From a virus, in the IMG/VR virus record IMGVR_UViG_3300032893_000105, positions 1 to 44,002 of that record: 44,002 nt of DNA; one strand, written 5' to 3'. The stretch's first letter is position 1. The number at the start of each line of letters is the position of its first letter. A program made the translations under genes and the position numbers. The notes beneath the pieces are model-generated. The model worked only from the letters and a program-made list of their open reading frames with translations. It was not told the origin of the DNA and did not search any database. Positions 2,968 through 14,890 of this stretch are shown here, one piece after another.

Positions 2968-3702
2968 TTATATAGTGTGTGTGAGAAGAGGAGTCTCTCC
3001 CCCTCGGGGCCTCTGCTTTCGCGGCCTATTCCGGCCGGTAGAGCGGTGGCGGTGTCCCGGGGTCCCCACCAGGGCCGGACCGGCCTGGTCGCCCAACCGC
3101 CAGACCAGAATGCGTTCGGTCCGGTTCAGCAGCTGGCGCACGCGTTCCCGCCCGACCCCAAGATGGTCGCCGATTTGCCGGAGAGTCCACCCTTCCAAAT
3201 GGTACTGCCAGAGCACCCATATCTCTCGTTCGACGAGGAAGCCCCGCCGGCGCAGCTCTTCGAGGAGGCCCTGGAGGTGACGGAACTGGTCGGCGATCTC
3301 GGCCGTGACCGCCGGATCGGGCTCCCGGCCGATGAGGCAATCGATGGCCGTCTGATTGTTGTCCGGGCGGCGGTCCTGGAGGGTGGTGAACTCACATCGA
3401 CCCCAACGGGCACTCTCGACGGTAGAGTGAGGGGAAATCCAGATCATATTACGGACAACCCAGACGACCCGCTGGACGAGATAAGGACCCAATCCGGCCT
3501 TTCCATGCGGGGACTTTTGAAAGTCCCATTGTCGCCAGGCCTTCACCAGGGCAAGCTGGGCTTCGCCGAGGAGCTCGTCGAGATCAACCCGCGCGTCACG
3601 GGCTGCGCTGGCATAACGGGATACGATACGATGGGGGATTTGCAGATGTTCCGCGGTGAGCGGCGTGGCAAACGAGGCTGAGCCGCTGATCTCCACCTTC
3701 AT
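2968..3702 (-). CDS. Sigma-70 family RNA polymerase sigma factor
   Basis: 244 aa; ATG at 3702 follows AGGAG. Residues 25-90 (VSRYASAARDARVDLDELLG, ALVKAWRQWDF, GPYLVQRVVWVVRNMI) resemble region 2 with its core-binding and -10-recognition helices. Residues 155-200 (EREIWVLWQYHLEGWTLRQI, GDHLGVGRERVRQLLNRTER) are a clear region 4 HTH for -35 binding. The basic, Pro-rich C-terminus is probably disordered. It likely redirects host RNA polymerase, perhaps to late phage promoters, and lies between the replication and packaging genes. No anti-sigma gene is recognisable. Confidence 0.85.
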   Translation of the reverse strand: MKVEISGSASFATPLTAEHLQIPHRIVSRYASAARDARVDLDELLGEAQLALVKAWRQWDFQKSPHGKAGLGPYLVQRVVWVVRNMIWISPHSTVESARWGRCEFTTLQDRRPDNNQTAIDCLIGREPDPAVTAEIADQFRHLQGLLEELRRRGFLVEREIWVLWQYHLEGWTLRQIGDHLGVGRERVRQLLNRTERILVWRLGDQAGPALVGTPGHRHRSTGRNRPRKQRPRGGETPLLTHTI

Positions 3703-3713
3703 GGAGTCTCCTT

Positions 3714-4034
3714 TTAGCTCACCACCTGGTTCTCGGTCACGACGATGCCTATCCCCGCCGTGGAAACCGGAGACGACTCTTCGACCAGCCGGCGCTCGGC
3801 GAGTCGATTGGTCAACATATCGAGTCGCTCCTGGAGTTTCTCCAATCTCTGGCGGATGTTGTAGAGGGCCTCCAGATAGTGCCCGGCCGTCTCGCACTCC
3901 CGGAGAAGGGCCTCCCGGAGGATGCGGTTCTCGGCCAGGGCGCCGGCCAGCAGACCGGCCCGACCGGTCAGGAGATTCGAGGTGACGCCCAGGTGTTCGT
4001 GGGCAGGGGGAACCGTGGCAGTGTCAGGGATCAT
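3714..4034 (-). CDS. Small protein with coiled-coil centre
   Basis: 106 aa; its ATG overlaps the stop of the preceding gene (ATGA). The central NIRQRLEKLQERLDMLTNRL is a strong amphipathic coiled-coil heptad stretch, so the protein probably oligomerises. No catalytic motif or signal peptide is visible. Translational coupling to the TubC-like gene and to the sigma gene downstream suggests an early-operon role. Function unknown. Confidence 0.6.
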   Translation of the reverse strand: MIPDTATVPPAHEHLGVTSNLLTGRAGLLAGALAENRILREALLRECETAGHYLEALYNIRQRLEKLQERLDMLTNRLAERRLVEESSPVSTAGIGIVVTENQVVS

Positions 4035-4696: not shown

Positions 4697-6112
4697 TCAC
4701 ACCTCCCCAAAGAGCGGCGGGGTTACTCCCGCCAGCCGCCTCCGAACCAGGTCCACCTGAGAAGCCCGTAGGTCGCAACCGATACCGACCCGGCCATTGG
4801 CCACGGCGACGGCGATCGTGGTACCCGAGCCCGCGAAGGGGTCGCACACCACCCCAGCCGGGGGGCAGAAGGAGCGGACGAAGAACTCAGCCAGCGATTC
4901 CGGGAACGGGGCCTCATTTTCGTGACAGAGGTCGTCGCCCATCGCCCCCCCGCCCACCACACAGTCGATCACGTTGCCCGGGTTGGCTCTCTCGGGAGGG
5001 CAGTAAACCCGCCCCGCCCGTTGGCGGGCCCGGTGCGGACCCACATTCTCCCGGTCAGCCATGGAGGCATAACCCGTGTCGTTGGCCCGTCGGCCGTCCT
5101 CCAGGCGATGGCTGGGGTTCCCGCCCGGCTCCCACTTTGGGGGCTCACCCATGGCCGTGTTGTTCGACCAAGGCAAAGGCCCCCCGTTGGTGGCACAAAC
5201 CACGAACTCGTAGTCGTGCCGCAGCCAGTCCGGGCCGCCGGAGCCTGGAATGCCGACGCGGTGGTAGATCGGCGGACAACGGAGAGTGATGCCTTCGGCG
5301 CGAAGCGCGGCCATCAGGAGCGCTGGCGAGGCGGTCCAGGCATAGCCCCGGGTGCGGCCCGCCACCACGAAGGCCACCAACCCCTTGCAGCATGACAGGG
5401 AGGCCTTGAAGACCTCCACCATCCACGTCACCCAAGCGTCCGTGTCGCGGGCCACGCCGAGATCTTCGCCGTTCTCCAGGTAGAGTCGGGCGTCCTCGTA
5501 GGGTGGCGAGCCGAAGATCAGGTCAATGCTCCCGGGCGCTTGGCGGCGAAGAAAGTCGAGGCAGTCTGCCTGTTCGACCCGCCACCGGTCGCCGCTGACG
5601 ACGGCCGGAATGTCCGGCCCGCTCGCACGGGCCTCCTCGCGGGCCTTCTTCCTTTCCAGCTCCTGGGCCAGCCGCCGCACTCCGGCACTGGTCGGCGCTT
5701 CGCCGTTCTCCCGGCACCAGCCGAGGTAGGCCTCGAAGTCCTCCTCCGGCACACTGGCGGCTTTCTGCCAGCGGTGGGAGTCGATGCGATTGACGCCTTC
5801 GGGCAGCCCCCCAATTGTTGCATCATGCAACAATTGGGGATTGCCCGGACGGACGGTCCGAGCCAACATCTCCCCCAATTGCCGCTCGGCCCGGAGCTTT
5901 AACTCGGCGGCATCCCGCATAGCCTCACCGGCGTCGTCGTGCTGGCGCAGGTAGAGGCGGATGGCCTCGGCCTGGTCGCGGATTTCCTTGACATCCTCGA
6001 TAGTGCGGGCCTCGGCCAGCAGTTGTCGGCCCCGGCTGATTAGCTCCAGTTGCCGGTCGGGGGCCGGAGCGACGGGGTAAGACTCTGCCCCCGCGTCGTT
6101 GTTCGGACTCAT
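4697..6112 (-). CDS. DNA methyltransferase (SPPY type) with N-terminal ParB/HTH-like region
   Basis: 471 aa from the ATG at 6112 (GGAGGAGACC upstream; the gene before it ends in ATGA overlap). Residues 70-150 (LRAERQLGEMLARTV, then HRWQKAASVPEEDFEAYL) resemble the DNA-binding segment found before DNA methylase domains in many phage enzymes. The catalytic half has ADCLDFLR, FGSPPYED near 200 (SPPY favours N4-cytosine modification) and CDPFAGSGTT near 423 (the AdoMet-binding FxGxG motif). The order, catalytic motif before FxGxG, is the beta-type arrangement. It probably protects phage DNA against host restriction. A perfect 31-bp palindrome sits inside the gene at 5809-5839. Confidence 0.88.
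   Translation of the reverse strand: MSPNNDAGAESYPVAPAPDRQLELISRGRQLLAEARTIEDVKEIRDQAEAIRLYLRQHDDAGEAMRDAAELKLRAERQLGEMLARTVRPGNPQLLHDATIGGLPEGVNRIDSHRWQKAASVPEEDFEAYLGWCRENGEAPTSAGVRRLAQELERKKAREEARASGPDIPAVVSGDRWRVEQADCLDFLRRQAPGSIDLIFGSPPYEDARLYLENGEDLGVARDTDAWVTWMVEVFKASLSCCKGLVAFVVAGRTRGYAWTASPALLMAALRAEGITLRCPPIYHRVGIPGSGGPDWLRHDYEFVVCATNGGPLPWSNNTAMGEPPKWEPGGNPSHRLEDGRRANDTGYASMADRENVGPHRARQRAGRVYCPPERANPGNVIDCVVGGGAMGDDLCHENEAPFPESLAEFFVRSFCPPAGVVCDPFAGSGTTIAVAVANGRVGIGCDLRASQVDLVRRRLAGVTPPLFGEV
5809..5839. repeat. Perfect 14-bp-arm palindrome inside the methyltransferase gene
   Basis: CCCCAATTGTTGCA, a TCA loop, and TGCAACAATTGGGG form a perfect hairpin in coding sequence (residues about 92-101). 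It would fold in mRNA or could bind a dimeric protein. Perfect symmetry of this length is not required by the encoded peptide. Confidence 0.9.
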
Positions 6113-8366: not shown

Positions 8367-8697
8367 GGACGGTCTCCCGGAGAAGGTGGCGCAGCCAGGC
8401 CGACAGGGGGGCGAGGCACTGGCAGTGCTTGCAGGTCTTGTCCGCTCGCTTCGCGAAGGTGAAACTGGGGCAGGAGCACCACCAGGCTCCCGACTTCTGC
8501 CGCCCGACGAGGTAGCAATCGCCCGTATCGAGCCGGGTGAGCCGCACCGACCGCGGCAGCTCGGGCACTCGCACGCCGGCCTCCTGGTGACCCATCACGG
8601 GTCCGCCGAGGGTGAGGTCGTAGCTGCGCTCCTCTCCCTCGGCGTCGGGGATCTGAATCGTGCCGGCTCCACGGTCATCGATCAGGATCACCGTCAT
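8350..8697 (-). CDS. SWIM zinc-finger protein
   Basis: 115 aa. WWCSCPSFTF followed by KTCKHCQCLA gives the CxCxnCxH signature of SWIM zinc fingers (residues about 70-95), which bind DNA or proteins and, in other lineages, accompany Rad51/Rad52-type recombination proteins (Sws1-Shu complexes). The ATG overlaps the stop of the Rad52-like gene (ATGA), so the two are probably translated together. The N-terminal half (VILIDDRGAGTIQI, then ERSYDLTLGG) is probably beta-rich. Confidence 0.72.
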   Translation of the reverse strand: MTVILIDDRGAGTIQIPDAEGEERSYDLTLGGPVMGHQEAGVRVPELPRSVRLTRLDTGDCYLVGRQKSGAWWCSCPSFTFAKRADKTCKHCQCLAPLSAWLRHLLRETVHAERF

Positions 8698-9467
8698 GTC
8701 TCGGCTCCTTTCGCCGCCAGGCTGACGGCCGGACCGACGTCCTGGTTGTTCCGCGCGTCCAGGACTCGCTCCAGGAAGCCAATCCATTCGGCCAGCTGTA
8801 CCCCCTCGAGCCGGAGCCAATCACCATGGCCAAATTTCTGCCCCAGACGGGTTGCATACCAGTGGTCCGGCTTCCCCACCCGGGCCATAAGTTGCTGAAC
8901 CTGCCCGCGCAGGTCCTCCAAAGGCCCGGGTCCCGATGTCGGCCTGGGCGGTGCCAGCCCCGGCGCCGCGGCCATGCCCACGCCCCTGGGCAGCGCCCAG
9001 TCCGGCAGGGCCGGGGGACGCGCGAACCGCCGCTTCTGGGGGTCGTAGTCGCACCACTGCACCGGCAGCCGATAGAGGTACCGGCCGATTCCGAACTTCA
9101 CCGCCGCCCGCTTGAGAGCGTCGGAGCATGCCGCCTTGCGGCGGTCACCCTCATCAGACTGCTCACTCTGTCCGCCGACATCCGTCTTTGTGATCCACTC
9201 CGTCCCTCGCCGGACCGACAGCTCGCAGATGGCGGAACCGTCGGGGAGGAATTGATAAGTATCCTGCCAGCCCAGAACCCCGAACACGGAATCCAGTCGA
9301 TCCATCACGACCCGGGCATCGATGTAAGCCAGCGCCAGGGCCCGATTGCCGCTGACGGTCTGCGGCTTGAACTTCACCTCGCCAGGCTCAAACGGCGCCA
9401 GCAGCGCCTGCTCGATCGCGCGTGCGTCCCCGTCTTCGGCGGACGGGGTGGTTGGCTGCTTCGTCAT
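8694..9467 (-). CDS. Rad52/Rad22-family single-strand annealing protein
   Basis: 257 aa. Residues 20-150 show the Rad52 pattern: LALAYIDARVVMDRLDSVFG and VLGWQDTYQFLPDGSAICEL (double-strand-break repair core), then DALKRAAVKFGIGRYLYRLP, the conserved AVKxFGIGRYLY helix. The acidic and Pro/Gly-rich C-terminus is variable, as usual. It should anneal complementary single strands during phage recombination-dependent replication. Overlaps with csrA before it and the SWIM gene after it put it in a tight early operon. A cognate exonuclease is not obvious. Confidence 0.88.
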   Translation of the reverse strand: MTKQPTTPSAEDGDARAIEQALLAPFEPGEVKFKPQTVSGNRALALAYIDARVVMDRLDSVFGVLGWQDTYQFLPDGSAICELSVRRGTEWITKTDVGGQSEQSDEGDRRKAACSDALKRAAVKFGIGRYLYRLPVQWCDYDPQKRRFARPPALPDWALPRGVGMAAAPGLAPPRPTSGPGPLEDLRGQVQQLMARVGKPDHWYATRLGQKFGHGDWLRLEGVQLAEWIGFLERVLDARNNQDVGPAVSLAAKGAET

Positions 9468-9881: not shown

Positions 9882-10077
9882 GGGACGCCTCGCTTCCCTC
9901 GTCACGGGCCATGTTCAGCAGTTCCAGCGCGAGCAAGTGCCGCCCATGGTGCTGGCCGTAGGCCTCGGCTGTGTACACCGATGGATAATTCAGGTAGTGC
10001 TCGGCGTATTGGGCCGAGAGTATGGCCTCAGCCTCGGCGATCTTACGCACAACGATGAGCCATTCACTCGGATTCAT
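9874..10077 (-). CDS. Hypothetical small helical protein
   Basis: 67 aa from the ATG at 10077. EWLIVVRKIAEAEAILSAQY and GQHHGRHLLALELLNMARDE are likely two helices. No family recognised. Overlaps its upstream neighbour by 14 bp, consistent with a translationally coupled early operon. Confidence 0.55.
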   Translation of the reverse strand: MNPSEWLIVVRKIAEAEAILSAQYAEHYLNYPSVYTAEAYGQHHGRHLLALELLNMARDEGSEASHG

Positions 10078-10312
10078 GGGATCTTTCTTCCTCGAACAAA
10101 GGCAATTTCTGGGCTGCTCGCTCCACATAACGTTCGATCCGCCGGTCCAACTTGTCCTGCTCCGTCCCCGGCGGAGGCTCCCAGCAGCCCTGCTGGTGTA
10201 CTCGCGTCAGATGGCGTGAATGTTCGCAACGGGTGCGCGGCCGGCCCGGCTTTCCGTGGCAGGGCTCCCCACAGTAGGGGCAGGGACGACAATGTCGATG
10301 GTGCTTTGCCAT
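10064..10312 (-). CDS. Small Cys/His-rich protein, probable zinc finger
   Basis: 82 aa. CRPCPYCGEPCHGKPGRPRT and RCEHSRHLTRVHQQGC provide CxxCxxC and later C/H ligands, so a zinc-binding fold is likely in the first half. The second half (DKLDRRIERYVERAAQKLPL) is a helix. The ATG overlaps the stop of the gene before it (ATGA). May bind nucleic acid; the role is unknown. Confidence 0.6.
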   Translation of the reverse strand: MAKHHRHCRPCPYCGEPCHGKPGRPRTRCEHSRHLTRVHQQGCWEPPPGTEQDKLDRRIERYVERAAQKLPLFEEERSHESE

Positions 10313-10503
10313 CAGTCCCCTCCCCGTTCGGACGGATGCCCCAATTCCTCAAGGAGCAAATCGGCCAGTCGGACTGCATCACGGGTCACACTCGAGAGGC
10401 TCCCCGGATAGGATCCCGCGAGGAGGCCGGACAGAGCCTGCCCGGCCAGGAAACAGCGGATCTCGGGCAGATTCAGGCCGCTGAGGTCATTGACGGGTCG
10501 CAT
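10312..10503 (-). CDS. Hypothetical small protein
   Basis: 63 aa from the ATG at 10503. NDLSGLNLPEIRCFLAGQAL and VTRDAVRLADLLLEELGHP are helical with no known motif. Overlaps both neighbours, which supports a coupled operon. Confidence 0.5.
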   Translation of the reverse strand: MRPVNDLSGLNLPEIRCFLAGQALSGLLAGSYPGSLSSVTRDAVRLADLLLEELGHPSERGGD

Positions 10504-10726
10504 TCTCTTCCTCCTGGCCCGGCTCGATGGCGAAACACCAGGCCTCGAAACTCCACAGTCGTGAGTCAGGATTCTGCGCCGTAATGGCGTACACGTACAT
10601 TCCGTTCAGGTAGCCTGTGGCCACGTACAGGCCGAGACGGGCGTCCTCCAGCCGGGCGGCGAGAGTCTTCAACAGATCCAGGGCCACCTTTTCGCCGTGG
10701 ACAAAATCGATATCGACGATGGGCAT
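10487..10726 (-). CDS. Hypothetical small protein
   Basis: 79 aa from the ATG at 10726. VALDLLKTLAARLEDARLGL, YVATGYLNGMYVYAITAQNP and SFEAWCFAIEPG suggest an alpha/beta fold of unknown role. No motif recognised. Confidence 0.5.
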   Translation of the reverse strand: MPIVDIDFVHGEKVALDLLKTLAARLEDARLGLYVATGYLNGMYVYAITAQNPDSRLWSFEAWCFAIEPGQEEENATRQ

Positions 10727-10734
10727 GTCTTACC

Positions 10735-11055
10735 TCAGAAGGGGACGGGCTGCTCCCGGGTTACTTCGACGTGGTCGAACTTCCCCTCGGGGGTAAACAT
10801 GCTGTGGCAGCGGTGTCGTTCGAGGCGGCCGTCGCTCCACAGGGTCCAGCACACGGAGGGGTCGCTGCTGTCCCGCAGGAGCACACACAGGGGGACGTCA
10901 TGGCTATCGGTCAGCAGAAACGCCTGGGGCCCCTCGGCCTCGAGCCACCACCACTGGAGGATCTCTGCGACCACAACGGCCGTCGGGACACGGTGCCGGT
11001 ACTGGCACGACAGGCCGTGGTGGGCCGGACCGTGCACATGAATGACCGTAAACAT
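10735..11055 (-). CDS. Hypothetical protein downstream of repeat array
   Basis: 106 aa; ATG at 11055 with a strong GGAGGTGG ribosome site. The protein contains GPAHHGLSCQYRHRVPTAVV, then EILQWWWLEAEGPQAFLLTD and DGRLERHRCHSMF, with many His, Trp and Cys. No family recognised. It is the first gene after the 11.1-11.5 kb period-5 array, so its leader is that repeat sequence. Confidence 0.55.
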   Translation of the reverse strand: MFTVIHVHGPAHHGLSCQYRHRVPTAVVVAEILQWWWLEAEGPQAFLLTDSHDVPLCVLLRDSSDPSVCWTLWSDGRLERHRCHSMFTPEGKFDHVEVTREQPVPF

Positions 11056-11076
11056 TGACCACCTCCTTTAATCTCC

Positions 11077-11460
11077 ATGCCTGCCACGCCGGGCCTAGCC
11101 TTGGCGAGCCAAGCCCAGCCGGTCCTGCCATGTCGTGCCAAGCCTTGGCGAGCCGAGCCCCGCCGCGCCTGCCAGGTCGTTCCGCGCCGTCCGAGCCTGC
11201 CAGGTTCTGCCGTGACCGGCCCTGGCACGCCGAGCCGGAGCACGTCTAGCCTGCCGGGGCCTGCCGTGACCAGGCATGCCCTGCCGTGTCGCGCCTTCCG
11301 GCCCGCGCCTGCCGTGTCCTGCCGTCGCCAGCCTGGCCATGTGGCGCCGGGACTGGCCGCGCCTGCCGTGACAAGCCTCGCCGGCTCACGTCAGGCCAGG
11401 ACTCGCCAGGCCCGCCGTGGCGAGTCCTGACGCGACCTGCCACGTCGACCCAAGCCGTGC
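11077..11460. repeat. Degenerate repeat array with 5-bp periodicity (array B)
   Basis: A 400-bp gene-free stretch built from GCC-containing words at 5-bp spacing, read on the plus strand as AGCCT, AGCCA, AGCCC, AGCCG, or on the transcribed strand as GGCNN. The phase drifts by single bases but is regained. Words such as CTGCCGTG, GCGCCTGCC and AGCCTTGGCGAGCC recur. The 15-mer CTGGCCGCGCCTGCC at 11353 also occurs three times in array A. No fixed repeat-spacer layout and no open frame with convincing coding character. Confidence 0.8.
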
Positions 11461-11476
11461 CCGATTCTTCACCCGC

Positions 11477-11935
11477 TCACGCCGACTCGGGCTCGGGCGC
11501 GAGGACGGTGCGGTACTGCTCGACGAGGTCGTGAATCTCTTCAAAGAACTCTTTCATTTCTTCCAAGTAGCAATAGCGCTGCCGGAGGGACTGCACTTCC
11601 TTCAGAGCCGCCGAGATCAGATGCGTCCTGCGGACCGTGTCCTTCAGCACTTCGGTCGTGCGGCGATAGCCGTGCCCGTCGACGGCCAGGTGCACGTAGG
11701 CGCGCACTTTCTGCGGGGCGGTGCGCACGTGGATGACGTGTGCCTTGATCAGCCGCCGCGCCTGATCGAGCCGATGGGCATGCGCGGCGACACTGTCATC
11801 CCACTCAAACTGTTGCCCCAGTTCGGAGTTGCGATTGGCCTGTGCGCAGGCCAGCACAGCCTCCGGCAGCAAGATCCGCTCGGGATCCTGTTTCCGGATC
11901 CCCTCGAGCGTCTTCGCCAGGGTCTTACTGATCAT
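11477..11935 (-). CDS. Phage-conserved hypothetical protein (152 aa)
   Basis: The ATG at 11935 overlaps the end of the upstream gene by 11 bp. RILLPEAVLACAQANRNSEL, GQQFEWDDSVAAHAHRLDQA and RRLIKAHVIHV match a pattern I know from many phage and prophage hypothetical proteins (PEAVV-A-x-SPLH-FEWDD-A--YRL-QAR-LI), often near recombination genes. The C-terminal half is helical and coiled-coil-like (LKEVQSLRQRYCYLEEMKEF). The function is unknown. The pair with the upstream gene is flanked on both sides by period-5 repeat arrays. Confidence 0.75.
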   Translation of the reverse strand: MISKTLAKTLEGIRKQDPERILLPEAVLACAQANRNSELGQQFEWDDSVAAHAHRLDQARRLIKAHVIHVRTAPQKVRAYVHLAVDGHGYRRTTEVLKDTVRRTHLISAALKEVQSLRQRYCYLEEMKEFFEEIHDLVEQYRTVLAPEPESA

Positions 11936-12647
11936 TGGATTCCTCCTCCGGTTCCACGGTCTCCACGACGCGAAAGAGCCCCCAACCCATGCCCGTGCTC
12001 TTCTTGCTATCCGGCCGACCCTCGCCGATTCCCACCTGACAGCCGACCCGCATGAGGAGGTTGATGACATCCGTGTCGGTGAAGACGTCGGCGTCGTAGC
12101 GGATCCGCACGACGGCCTCCCAGCCCTCCTCCCAGAAGGGCCGGGCCCGGATGTCCGCCACCCCAGATTCATTCCTCACTGGGTGCTCCCGGCACACGGG
12201 CTTGCCCTTGGTGATGCGAACCAACGGAGTCCCGTCCAGGGTGTCCTTGCCGTCGGCGATGATGTAAACAGCCAACTTCGAGACCGTCATGGCAAACCCG
12301 CACAGTCGGCACGCACTCACGAGCGCATTGCGGAACGCCCCCGCCGGGATACCCCAGCCGTCCGGGAGGCGATACTGGGCCTCCTCGAAACAGGCTTCGA
12401 AGTTCTTGGGGTCCCGCTTGCGACCCTTCTTGGCCGTGGAGCCCTCCGCCTGTCGCTGTCGCATGATCTCTCGGGCTTTGATACTGAATCTGTTCTGACA
12501 ATACTCCGTTTCTCCGCAGATGCGGATCGCCACCTCGTGCATGTTGGGTTCACTGATGGTCAGGATCGGCGCCACCACTTCCCCGGCGGTTGCGCCGTTC
12601 GTCAGTTCCGCCTGCACGCGAACCACTTTGGTCGTCCGCTTCGCCAT
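11925..12647 (-). CDS. Hypothetical protein with possible RAMP/Cas7-like features
   Basis: 240 aa from the ATG at 12647, preceded by AAGGAA; the longer in-frame extension runs into repeat DNA and is rejected. Residues 97-117 hold DGWGIPAGAFRNALVSACRL, 160-188 hold ESGVADIRARPFWEEGWEAV then a beta strand, and 195-226 hold INLLMRVGCQVGIGEGRPDS followed by TGMGWGLF. The placement of an SxxRNAL-like helix, a late beta strand and a C-terminal Gly-rich GxGxxR...GxGxG loop recalls RRM-fold RAMP proteins such as Cas7, but similarity is only by eye. I see no nuclease motif. It is co-transcribed with the 152-aa gene and bracketed by two period-5 arrays. Confidence 0.6.
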   Translation of the reverse strand: MAKRTTKVVRVQAELTNGATAGEVVAPILTISEPNMHEVAIRICGETEYCQNRFSIKAREIMRQRQAEGSTAKKGRKRDPKNFEACFEEAQYRLPDGWGIPAGAFRNALVSACRLCGFAMTVSKLAVYIIADGKDTLDGTPLVRITKGKPVCREHPVRNESGVADIRARPFWEEGWEAVVRIRYDADVFTDTDVINLLMRVGCQVGIGEGRPDSKKSTGMGWGLFRVVETVEPEEESNDQ

Positions 12648-12699
12648 GCTTCGATTCCTTTTAAGGTGTTGAAAAAAATATTCCTCTGCTCTGTTCACC

Positions 12700-13047
12700 A
12701 TGCCTGCCATGCCTGCCATGCCTGGCCCGGCCCAGCCCACCGGGCCTAGCCATGCCCTGCCTGCCGTGTCGAGCCAAGCCTCGGCAGGCCCGGCCTGGCC
12801 ACGCCAGGCCTGCCGTACCGCGACCTACCCCACCGTGCCCCGCCCAGTCGAGACGAGCCATGCCTGCCTTGACTCGCCCTGACTTGCCCAGCCTCGCCTG
12901 GCCGCGCCTGCCGCGCCTGGCCTGGCCTCGCCTGGCCGCCCTTTCCCCGCCGCGCCTGCCGTGTAGAGCCTCGCCTGGCCGCGCCTGCCGCGCCTGGCCA
13001 CCCGAGCCAGCCCTGGCCGCGCCTGCCGCTCATTGGCGACACTTGCC
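12700..13047. repeat. Degenerate repeat array with 5-bp periodicity (array A)
   Basis: GCC-based words at 5-bp spacing (for example GAGCC AAGCC TCGGC AGGCC CGGCC TGGCC ACGCC), with ATGCCTGCC repeated three times at 12710-12736. A perfect 32-bp direct repeat lies at 12891-12922 and 12968-12999. The 15-mer CTGGCCGCGCCTGCC occurs at 12898, 12975 and 13013 and once in array B. The array forms the 5' leader of the 12.6-kb gene, downstream of the promoter at 13101-13129. The words vary and there are no constant spacers, so it is not CRISPR. Confidence 0.85.
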
Positions 13048-13100
13048 ATGATCTGGTGCTCCATCAGGGGCGTAGGTCGTTTCTCTCGTCTGACACGGGT

Positions 13101-13129
13101 ATCCTACTCTCGGCGGCTAGCCTTGTCAA
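13101..13129 (-). promoter_or_regulatory. Leftward sigma70-like promoter
   Basis: On the minus strand TTGACA (13124-13129) is followed after 17 bp by TAGGAT (13101-13106). The -35 is a perfect consensus; the -10 matches 4 of 6. One GGCTAGCC palindrome lies in the spacer and one just upstream of the -35. It would transcribe array A and the two genes behind it. Confidence 0.65.
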
Positions 13130-13229
13130 TGGAGGCTAGCCACTTTTTCCAAATACATCAGAGGCTTGCCTTAACTAGAAGCGACCCCTATACTTAGATG
13201 GTGCCGTCCAAGGCTGCTGGAGGCTTGCA
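13115..13229. promoter_or_regulatory. Four GGCTWGCC-type operator boxes between divergent promoters
   Basis: GGCTAGCC at 13115-13122 and 13134-13141, GGCTTGCC at 13163-13170 and GGCTTGCA at 13222-13229. Centre-to-centre spacings are 19, 29 and 59 bp, close to whole helical turns minus one base. Two boxes cover the leftward promoter, one covers the rightward -35 and the last abuts the regulator start codon. This suits a dimeric or tetrameric repressor, probably the ribbon-helix-helix protein encoded next to it (inference). Confidence 0.55.
13166..13194 (+). promoter_or_regulatory. Rightward promoter for the regulator gene
   Basis: TTGCCT (13166-13171), a 17-bp spacer and TATACT (13189-13194, 5 of 6 matches) lie 35 bp before the regulator's ATG. 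The -35 overlaps a GGCTTGCC box, pointing to autoregulation. Confidence 0.55.
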
Positions 13230-13475
13230 ATGGCAACTTGTGCCGGTACAATCCGGAGCATGGGAAGAAAAAAGAAGAACCCCCAGAGTCGGGCCCCCAA
13301 TTACGCGCTGTTCGCTCGCCTGCCTCCTGGGCTAGGTGCAGCATTCGACCGCTACCTGGAGAGCCAGCGACCCAAGCCAACGGCCAATTCCGCGGTGGTC
13401 GTGGCAATGGAGGAGTTCCTCCAAAAGCGGGGATTCTGGCCTCCCCCGTCCGACCAGCCCCCGGCGGGCGCCTGA
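13230..13475 (+). CDS. Ribbon-helix-helix-like regulator, only plus-strand gene
   Basis: 81 aa. ATG at 13230 has GGAGG six bases upstream; an ATG at 13260 is possible but its GGAG is only one base away. After a basic start (MGRKKKNPQ) the core NYALFARLPPGLGAAFDRYL, then PTANSAVVVAMEEFLQKRGF reads as strand-helix-helix, the layout of CopG/Arc-type DNA-binding dimers. It is divergent from the leftward early genes with shared operator boxes between, and ends exactly where the convergent HTH gene ends. Probably the early-gene repressor; lysogeny control is not proven. Confidence 0.6.
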   Translation: MATCAGTIRSMGRKKKNPQSRAPNYALFARLPPGLGAAFDRYLESQRPKPTANSAVVVAMEEFLQKRGFWPPPSDQPPAGA

Positions 13476-13787
13476 CTATCCCTTCCTCCGCCCTAGCTCC
13501 CGATCAAGAAAGTCTGTAGCTGCCCGGTGGGCTCGACGGTCGGCCTCCTCGATGGTCCTGAGATCGGCTTCCAGTTCGATGATCCGGCCCCCGGTACAGC
13601 AGGCGATGAACTCCACTACTGCCCGCCGCGAGATCCGCCAGCAGCCGCCCGCCTTGAAGGCACGCAGGGTCACAGTCTGACCCCGCACTCGATGGCCGCG
13701 ACGAATCCATGCTTGCACGATGTCAGTTGACACCTTCAGTTCAGCCGCGACTTCGGCCACACTCAAGTAATCGCACTCCGCGCCCAC
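13476..13787 (-). CDS. Excisionase-like HTH protein
   Basis: 103 aa from a GTG at 13787 preceded by GGAGGG; a TTG at 13922 would add a low-complexity leader. DYLSVAEVAAELKVSTDIVQ, AWIRRGHRVRG, then GCWRISRRAVVEF match the HTH_17/MerR-like winged-helix of excisionase-family DNA-binding domains. The C-terminal helix is basic. It is adjacent to the regulator and 0.7 kb from the integrase fragment, so it may be a recombination directionality factor or just a transcription regulator. Confidence 0.7.
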   Translation of the reverse strand: MGAECDYLSVAEVAAELKVSTDIVQAWIRRGHRVRGQTVTLRAFKAGGCWRISRRAVVEFIACCTGGRIIELEADLRTIEEADRRAHRAATDFLDRELGRRKG

Positions 13788-13918
13788 GGCTCGCCCTCCG
13801 CAAAAGGGGACGAGAGGCAATCTAACGGACTGGTCGGGGAAGCTGGGGGGGGCAGTTGGGAGGGTTCCGGGGAATTCGCGGCGTCTACAGGATGCTGATG
13901 GGGAGGATCCGGGGAAGG

Positions 13919-14410
13919 TCAATCCCCGGGTAGGCTTTCAGCCAATCGGTAGGTGCCCCGCAGGTGGCCGGGTTGGATCAGTTCGCCCCAGCCGCAATGA
14001 ACCCCGCCGGGAGCCTTGAAGAGGTCCCTCGCCCGGGAGCCCTCGGACTCGGCCGCCTCGCACAGGGCCGCACCCTGGACATCCGGAGCGCCTTGCTCCC
14101 AGCCGGCCCACAGCGCCCGCACCGCGGCCGCCTGGGCGGAGTTGAACTGGTACTCGCGGGGGATCGATTCCCCGTTAAACGTCCACCAGACGTAACGGTA
14201 ATCTTCGCTGTGCCGACGCGGGGCCTGGCCATCTTTCGGAGTAGGGGCCACCGGGAGGCGCAGGCGGTCCCCATCGGCGAGGATGATTTCCAACGTCCGC
14301 GGCGGGGCGTGCGGCGCGTAGTGCGCGCAAAAGAGTCTGACGAGCCGTTGCAACTCCTCGAAGGGAGGCGGGGGCTCCTCGGGATGGGATGGCAAGGATC
14401 GGGCCTCCAC
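13919..14410 (-). CDS. Winged-helix-like hypothetical protein
   Basis: 163 aa from a GTG. The C-terminal part YQFNSAQAAAVRALWAGWEQ, then ARDLFKAPGG and GWGELIQPGHLRGTYRLAES resembles short planctomycete proteins that read 'FTPAQAACVxxLWEAWExGTPxV ... RDLFKxHPAW', a probable winged-helix DNA-binding domain. The N-terminal half is Pro-rich. Its role is unknown; it lies in the regulatory region. Confidence 0.6.
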   Translation of the reverse strand: MEARSLPSHPEEPPPPFEELQRLVRLFCAHYAPHAPPRTLEIILADGDRLRLPVAPTPKDGQAPRRHSEDYRYVWWTFNGESIPREYQFNSAQAAAVRALWAGWEQGAPDVQGAALCEAAESEGSRARDLFKAPGGVHCGWGELIQPGHLRGTYRLAESLPGD

Positions 14411-14482
14411 GGCGAGGACCCAATCAATGTACTCTAGTGACCCCTGTCTCTAGAAGGGTGGTATGGCGGACAGTCACTACCT

Positions 14483-14890
14483 TCACCCGGTTTCCTCGGC
14501 CGCCCGTCGAGCGGCCTCGTCGTCGGGGGCGGCGTAGCGCTCGGTGGTGCTGGCCTGGCCGTGGCCCAGCTCGGCCTGCGCTGCGTCGAGGCCATGGCTG
14601 GCTCGCACCCGGGTGCCGCGGGCGTGGCGGAGTTGGTGAGGGTGCCAGGGCTCCACGCCGGCGGCCCGGGCCGCAGTCGCGATCAGCCGGGTATAGTGTC
14701 GGCGCGTCGGCGGGGACAGACGGCCCCTCCGGGCGAAGAGATAATCATCCGGCGTCCGGGCCGCCTCCAGCCAGGGCTGGAGGACTGCTCGAGCTCGGGG
14801 GCCCAGATACACCACCCGCCGGGCGGATTCCCCCTCGATGGGAGAAGGAATCCCCCAGGCCGAAGTGGGCGATTCAGCCTTGTGGCGCAA
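14483..14890 (-). pseudogene. Tyrosine recombinase, C-terminal catalytic fragment
   Basis: About 135 aa from a TTG. RRVVYLGPRARAVLQPWLEA, then WHPHQLRHARGTRVRASHGL, DAAQAELGHGQASTTERYA shows the HxLRH box, the LGH and the nucleophile Tyr of an integrase. The N-terminal DNA-binding domain and box I with its first catalytic Arg are absent; only 53 bp separate this from the next gene. It is therefore a remnant, or at best a catalytic-domain-only protein that cannot act alone. It suggests temperate ancestry. Confidence 0.75.

Follow-up and report, generated by a model that had tools for sequence, protein, structure and literature searches.

The 44,002-nucleotide stretch of environmental viral DNA analysed here (the window; IMG/VR record IMGVR_UViG_3300032893_000105) almost certainly carries a VIPR (Viral Interference Programmable Repeat) system, in which two overlapping minus-strand genes are bracketed by two arrays of GGY/NN pentamers. 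This identity rests on array structure, protein fold, homology, the co-occurrence of gene and arrays, and one mutual guide–target pair in relatives; expression, processing and targets in the window phage itself we infer. VIPR was reported in a 2026 preprint (PMC13142463), according to which it comprises Vipr, which is a RAMP protein, the accessory protein vap, and vrRNAs in which GGY and NN alternate, the NN pairs binding double-stranded DNA with a one-base skip. RNA binding, the skip rule and repression have been shown there for the relatives from SUSP1 and a P. fulva prophage (PMC13142463).

Array A lies at 12700-13047, with its punctuated pentamers at 12695-13027, and array B spans 11077-11460, both read on the minus strand as GGY/NN pentamers; array A bears GGCA punctuation, and array B is more degenerate. 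As an earlier note on this DNA had stated, just two coupled genes lie between the arrays, vipr (11925-12647, minus strand, 240 aa) and vap (11477-11935, minus strand, 152 aa), the latter overlapping the end of vipr by 11 nt. The 5-bp period that the note had described in both arrays stands out clearly in autocorrelation. At lag 5, the base identity of array A is 0.548 and that of array B 0.483, with a mean of 0.27 over the window. Compared with shuffles of the arrays, these values are higher by 6.5-7.6 SD (first-order) and 5.7-5.9 SD (second-order), and at this lag the top ranks of the window fall in arrays A and B. Throughout the 44 kb, every chained GGY run of at least eight lies inside array A or B and on the minus strand, like both genes; the plus strand contains no such run. 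The 15-mer CTGGCCGCGCCTGCC, said to occur three times in array A and once in array B, is found exactly at 12898, 12975 and 13013 and at 11353, respectively, and shorter words repeat within array A and between the two arrays. Intact phase is confined to units A4 (12869-12908), A5 (12815-12864) and A6 (12766-12810) of array A and B1 (11314-11363), B3 (11202-11251), B5 (11130-11169) and B6 (11086-11125) of array B, all on the minus strand; the remaining units are damaged or one base off. Such degenerate or off-by-one units are commonest in array B, and we count them against the VIPR reading. Open reading frames within the arrays are considered artefacts, and an Rfam scan gave nothing above threshold near the arrays and no hammerhead. 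Apart from the arrays, positions 2201-2450 form a period-6 stretch with a lag-6 identity of up to 0.64.

The 240-aa protein belongs to phrog_4652, a family that it shares with the Vipr of phage Alf5, itself 98% identical to SUSP1 Vipr. A profile of the vipr family retrieves the solved SUSP1 Vipr (PDB 36pp) with an E-value of 7.4e-5 among 177,635 sequences, and hhalign aligns the two over 54 columns (probability 89.9, E 1.7e-6); identity between the window protein and the Alf5 protein, which is near-identical to SUSP1 Vipr, is 17%. No informative match was obtained in PADLOC, Pfam or NCBIfam. The AlphaFold model (pLDDT 84.1, pTM 0.79) was compared with the PDB by Foldseek, and the best matches are all CRISPR RAMPs, namely Csm3, type VII Cas7 and chains of Cmr complexes, with a best E-value of 2.9e-6, a probability of 1.00 and TM-scores of 0.32-0.49. 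The RAMP/Cas7-like (RRM-type) fold suspected in the earlier note from the sequence is thus borne out by structure prediction, with Csm3/Cas7 matches at probability 1.00.

Relatives of this Vipr occur in cyanophage Cy-LDV1 (51% identity), in Mycobacterium and Gordonia phages and, via the relative L004, in Felixounavirus, and a period-5 array lies beside the gene in 7/7 such phages examined, the Felixounavirus triplet being mostly GGT. An alignment-based search found Vipr relatives in 220 viral contigs, 80 of which were retrieved for locus analysis. By a strict test, 82 of the 95 vipr-bearing loci have sense-strand GGY runs of at least eight near the gene; in the remaining 13, period-5 stretches are present but weaker or degenerate. 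An antisense run occurs once among the 95, a set that includes the window as well as near-identical copies. Second-order shuffled loci pass the same test in 2 cases out of 94, and 18 of the 21 bacterial contigs found by protein alone also contain GGY runs. Nearly all homologues are array-bearing, and none of the three outcomes by which the earlier note would have been refuted (mostly array-free homologues, no 5-bp autocorrelation above shuffles, no RRM-like fold) came about. The best bacterial relatives point to no single host, as they come from Verrucomicrobia, Bacteroidales, Planctomycetota and Alphaproteobacteria. Additionally, the largest array encountered, roughly 1.2-1.3 kb long and containing more than 200 chained GGY triplets, lies between vipr and vap at L040:3670-4960. 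Felixounavirus Alf5, like SUSP1, has GGT/NN arrays (L010:3640-4045 and 5065-5470; L015:1995-2540 and 3555-4020) beside a gene annotated as hypothetical; genes of the Alf5 type are present in more than 70 Escherichia phage records, and GGT arrays are not mentioned in the accessible portions of the Felix O1 papers. Two contigs picked solely for a window-like terminase, L131 and L154, also encode Vipr and vap, and L154 passes the strict GGY-run test while L131 fails it.

The accessory protein vap (phrog_15946) is encoded near vipr in 86/95 loci, a few of which contributed to the vap profile itself. Its AlphaFold model is confident (pLDDT 93.7), yet no PDB match is better than E 1.5, so that its resemblance to winged-helix DNA-binding domains is just weak, and PADLOC, Pfam and NCBIfam returned no informative match; a model match to Csm6 (E 0.007) was judged to be chance. 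Compared with SUSP1 vap1 by hhalign, vap shows no detectable kinship (probability 0.3%), which we count against the VIPR reading and because of which the window locus is not type II by the vap criterion.

Across all loci, the entropy of successive pentamer positions in intact-phase units is 0.25, 0.31 and 0.81 bits for GGY and 1.88 and 1.97 bits for NN; GGY is conserved and NN is near-random. Where two GGY triplets in an otherwise perfect context are separated by a 4-nt step, that step is GGCA in 210/220 cases, distributed over 63 loci. Successive GGCAGGY motifs are spaced by 4+5k in 362 of 457 instances, and most intact units (216 of 254) contain 7-11 pentamers. The window follows the same pattern, its occasional 4-nt steps being mostly GGCA and splitting the arrays into units. 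Judged from these sequence regularities, GGCA would be a guide boundary and the guides would comprise 7-11 NN pairs. Staggered arrays with overlapping vrRNAs are mentioned in PMC13142463, and these may be the same thing as the GGCA-punctuated units.

We decoded the guides and scanned them against the collected loci with skips of 0-3 bases. One guide of L029 matches L034 at 18/18 positions under the one-base-skip rule, and one guide of L034 matches the same gene of L029 at 17/18; the two are related phages, represented by contigs of one metagenome (3300037043). Both matches keep to the codon frame, the wobble base being the one skipped, and the two guides together spell VGCSGA-FTV-EQ.LTR. Each phage matches its own guide more poorly in its own copy of the gene, at 14/18 and 15/18. 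The pair was tested separately because the general order-shuffle control also masked the L034 target region, and in 100 order-shuffled sets neither direction exceeded 15. The two guides are not fully independent, since they have the segment TT AC GT in common. The mutually targeted gene (L029:2362-3657 and L034:4917-6209) adjoins the VIPR locus in both contigs, and its product combines phage DNA-adenine-methylase-like and GNAT-like domains (PF22555, PF22559). When all loci are pooled, 152 guide matches reach 16 and 9 reach 17, as compared with 117-139 and 2-9 for order-shuffled guides, which also gave one 18/18 by chance, and with 171 and 7 for guides in reversed order. The pooled high matches thus hardly rise above order-shuffled guides, a result that we count against the VIPR reading. 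Since order-shuffled guides yield comparable numbers, we place no trust in the other 17/18 matches (L173, L040, L068, L022, L058 and L090), and an apparent excess at skip 1 was dropped as it disappeared under the order-shuffle control. L029/L034 is the sole convincing guide–target pair. We tentatively propose, as a possibility that falls somewhat short of an even chance, that GGCA is a conserved phase-shifting punctuation separating the guides of compact arrays, each of 7-11 NN pairs, and that phages of this branch target the homologous gene of close rivals while their own copy is spared by mismatches. The GGCA rule and the mutual-targeting case appear to be additions, the consulted portions of the literature containing no earlier description of them.

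For the guides of the window itself, no target was found for A5 in bacterial genomes, for A5, A6 and B3 in IMG/VR, for A5, A6 and B1 in 50 related records, or for any of the seven intact-phase units among the collected loci, and no self-target stood out within the window. Ten exact matches to eight NN pairs of A6 are ascribed to chance, as 0/10 match both bases of the ninth NN. This absence of a target in the searched sets is counted against the VIPR reading, though it comes as no surprise for a phage that has been neither cultivated nor assigned a host. It would also suit arrays that serve their protein merely as a local DNA or RNA platform, in autoregulation, at a replication origin or in packaging, with no guide function, as would the closeness of the arrays to their gene. 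A pure binding track, however, has no need of near-random NN positions, the L029/L034 pair fits the guide code, and guide function has been demonstrated in the systems of SUSP1 and P. fulva (PMC13142463); we regard a guide-free platform as very unlikely. Still less credible, to the point of being nearly negligible, is the reading of the arrays as annealing or recombination substrates for a nearby Rad52/Erf-like protein, for which the earlier note had suggested annealing. A Rad52 family protein is indeed encoded at 8694-9467, and the two arrays do contain recurrent short words, some of them common to both, but such substrates would need long common words, whereas the NN positions are near-random, and it is the 152-aa gene, not a Rad52 gene, that is conserved next to vipr (86/95 loci), which leaves the suggestion without support. 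Functionless GC-rich repeat expansion by slippage, to which the degenerate units and the short words recurrent within array A might point, has scarcely any probability and is refuted by the conservation found, namely the recurrence of the array rule in phages of very distant hosts, whose homologues are 17-51% identical at the protein level, the restriction to one strand (1 antisense run in 95 loci), and near-random NN combined with a conserved GGCA step.

With the VIPR reading, the arrays most likely encode guides, the DNA target being written in the NN positions. A sigma-70-type promoter-like site, TTGACA-17-TAGGAT, was located by consensus scan at 13129-13101 on the minus strand and reads into array A, like the promoter that the earlier note had described; it has the top score among four promoter-like sites in 10000-14500, a consensus match being by itself no evidence of function. 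Two GGCTAGCC palindromes (13115-13141) on either side of its -35 element constitute a candidate operator, the palindrome occurring 3 times in the window, where about 1 occurrence is expected, and regulation of this site is plausible from the sequence. Divergent from this region lies an 81-aa ORF (13230-13475) with its own promoter-like site and no family match, which is possibly a regulator. In the proposed mechanism, both arrays would be transcribed on the gene strand as vrRNAs, along each of which Vipr would assemble so as to hold the GGY triplets and expose the NN pairs. The earlier idea of the arrays as RNA tracks for a RAMP/Cas7-like protein agrees with the Csm3/Cas7 fold matches, the array-adjacent homologues and the RNA binding published for relatives (PMC13142463). 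The NN pairs would base-pair with double-stranded DNA read as NNxNNxNN, the skipped base often being a codon wobble position, and binding would keep genes of competing phages or prophages from being transcribed. The GGCA steps would mark boundaries, making each array a row of separate guides. The locus is probably a minimal RNA-guided weapon, used to switch off rival-phage genes.

In comparison with the type II VIPR of SUSP1 (PDB 36pp), as presented in PMC13142463, the window locus shares a phage-borne RAMP-fold Vipr of similar size, a small adjacent vap, and arrays of GGY/NN pentamers that lie on the coding strand both up- and downstream. Unlike the separate SUSP1 vrRNAs, which are ~100 nt each with a conserved tail and GGT triplets, the GGC arrays of the window are long and continuous, contain GGCA steps and showed no such tail; Vipr identity is low, and the vap proteins lack detectable kinship. 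The features of type II (the SUSP1 clade), vap1 and tailed single vrRNAs, were thus not found in the window. Homologous vipr and vap, annotated as hypothetical proteins, together with GGCA-punctuated GGY/NN arrays, are present in Saal (Mycobacterium), ODay, UmaThurman and Pipp (Gordonia) and Cy-LDV1 (cyanophage). The position of the array differs: Saal has it upstream only, the Gordonia phages have it between vipr and vap, and Cy-LDV1 has arrays between and after the genes, whereas those of the window stand before and after them. With the class 1 CRISPR RAMPs (Csm3, Cmr4, type VII Cas7) the likeness lies in the fold and, putatively, in assembly on a guide RNA. In place of the direct repeats, unique spacers and several cas genes of CRISPR-Cas, the window has pentamers with GGCA steps, its guide pairing would be gapped, involving 2 of every 3 target bases, and no cas match was found among the window proteins scanned. 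TIGR-Tas systems, too, are phage-borne and pair a compact protein with tandem guide arrays. The Tas proteins contain a Nop-type domain, whereas the window Vipr has no Pfam match and a RAMP fold.

VIPR, described only in 2026, has been proposed as the root of the CRISPR RAMPs, and the window locus falls in a large branch of it. Relatives were detected in 220 viral contigs, and the branch also extends to cyanophage, to phages of Mycobacterium and Gordonia and to contigs from many bacterial phyla. With the GGCA rule one could split long arrays into individual guides, as is needed for target prediction, and L029 and L034, whose guides are mismatched to their own copies, offer a concrete, testable case of phages silencing each other's genes.
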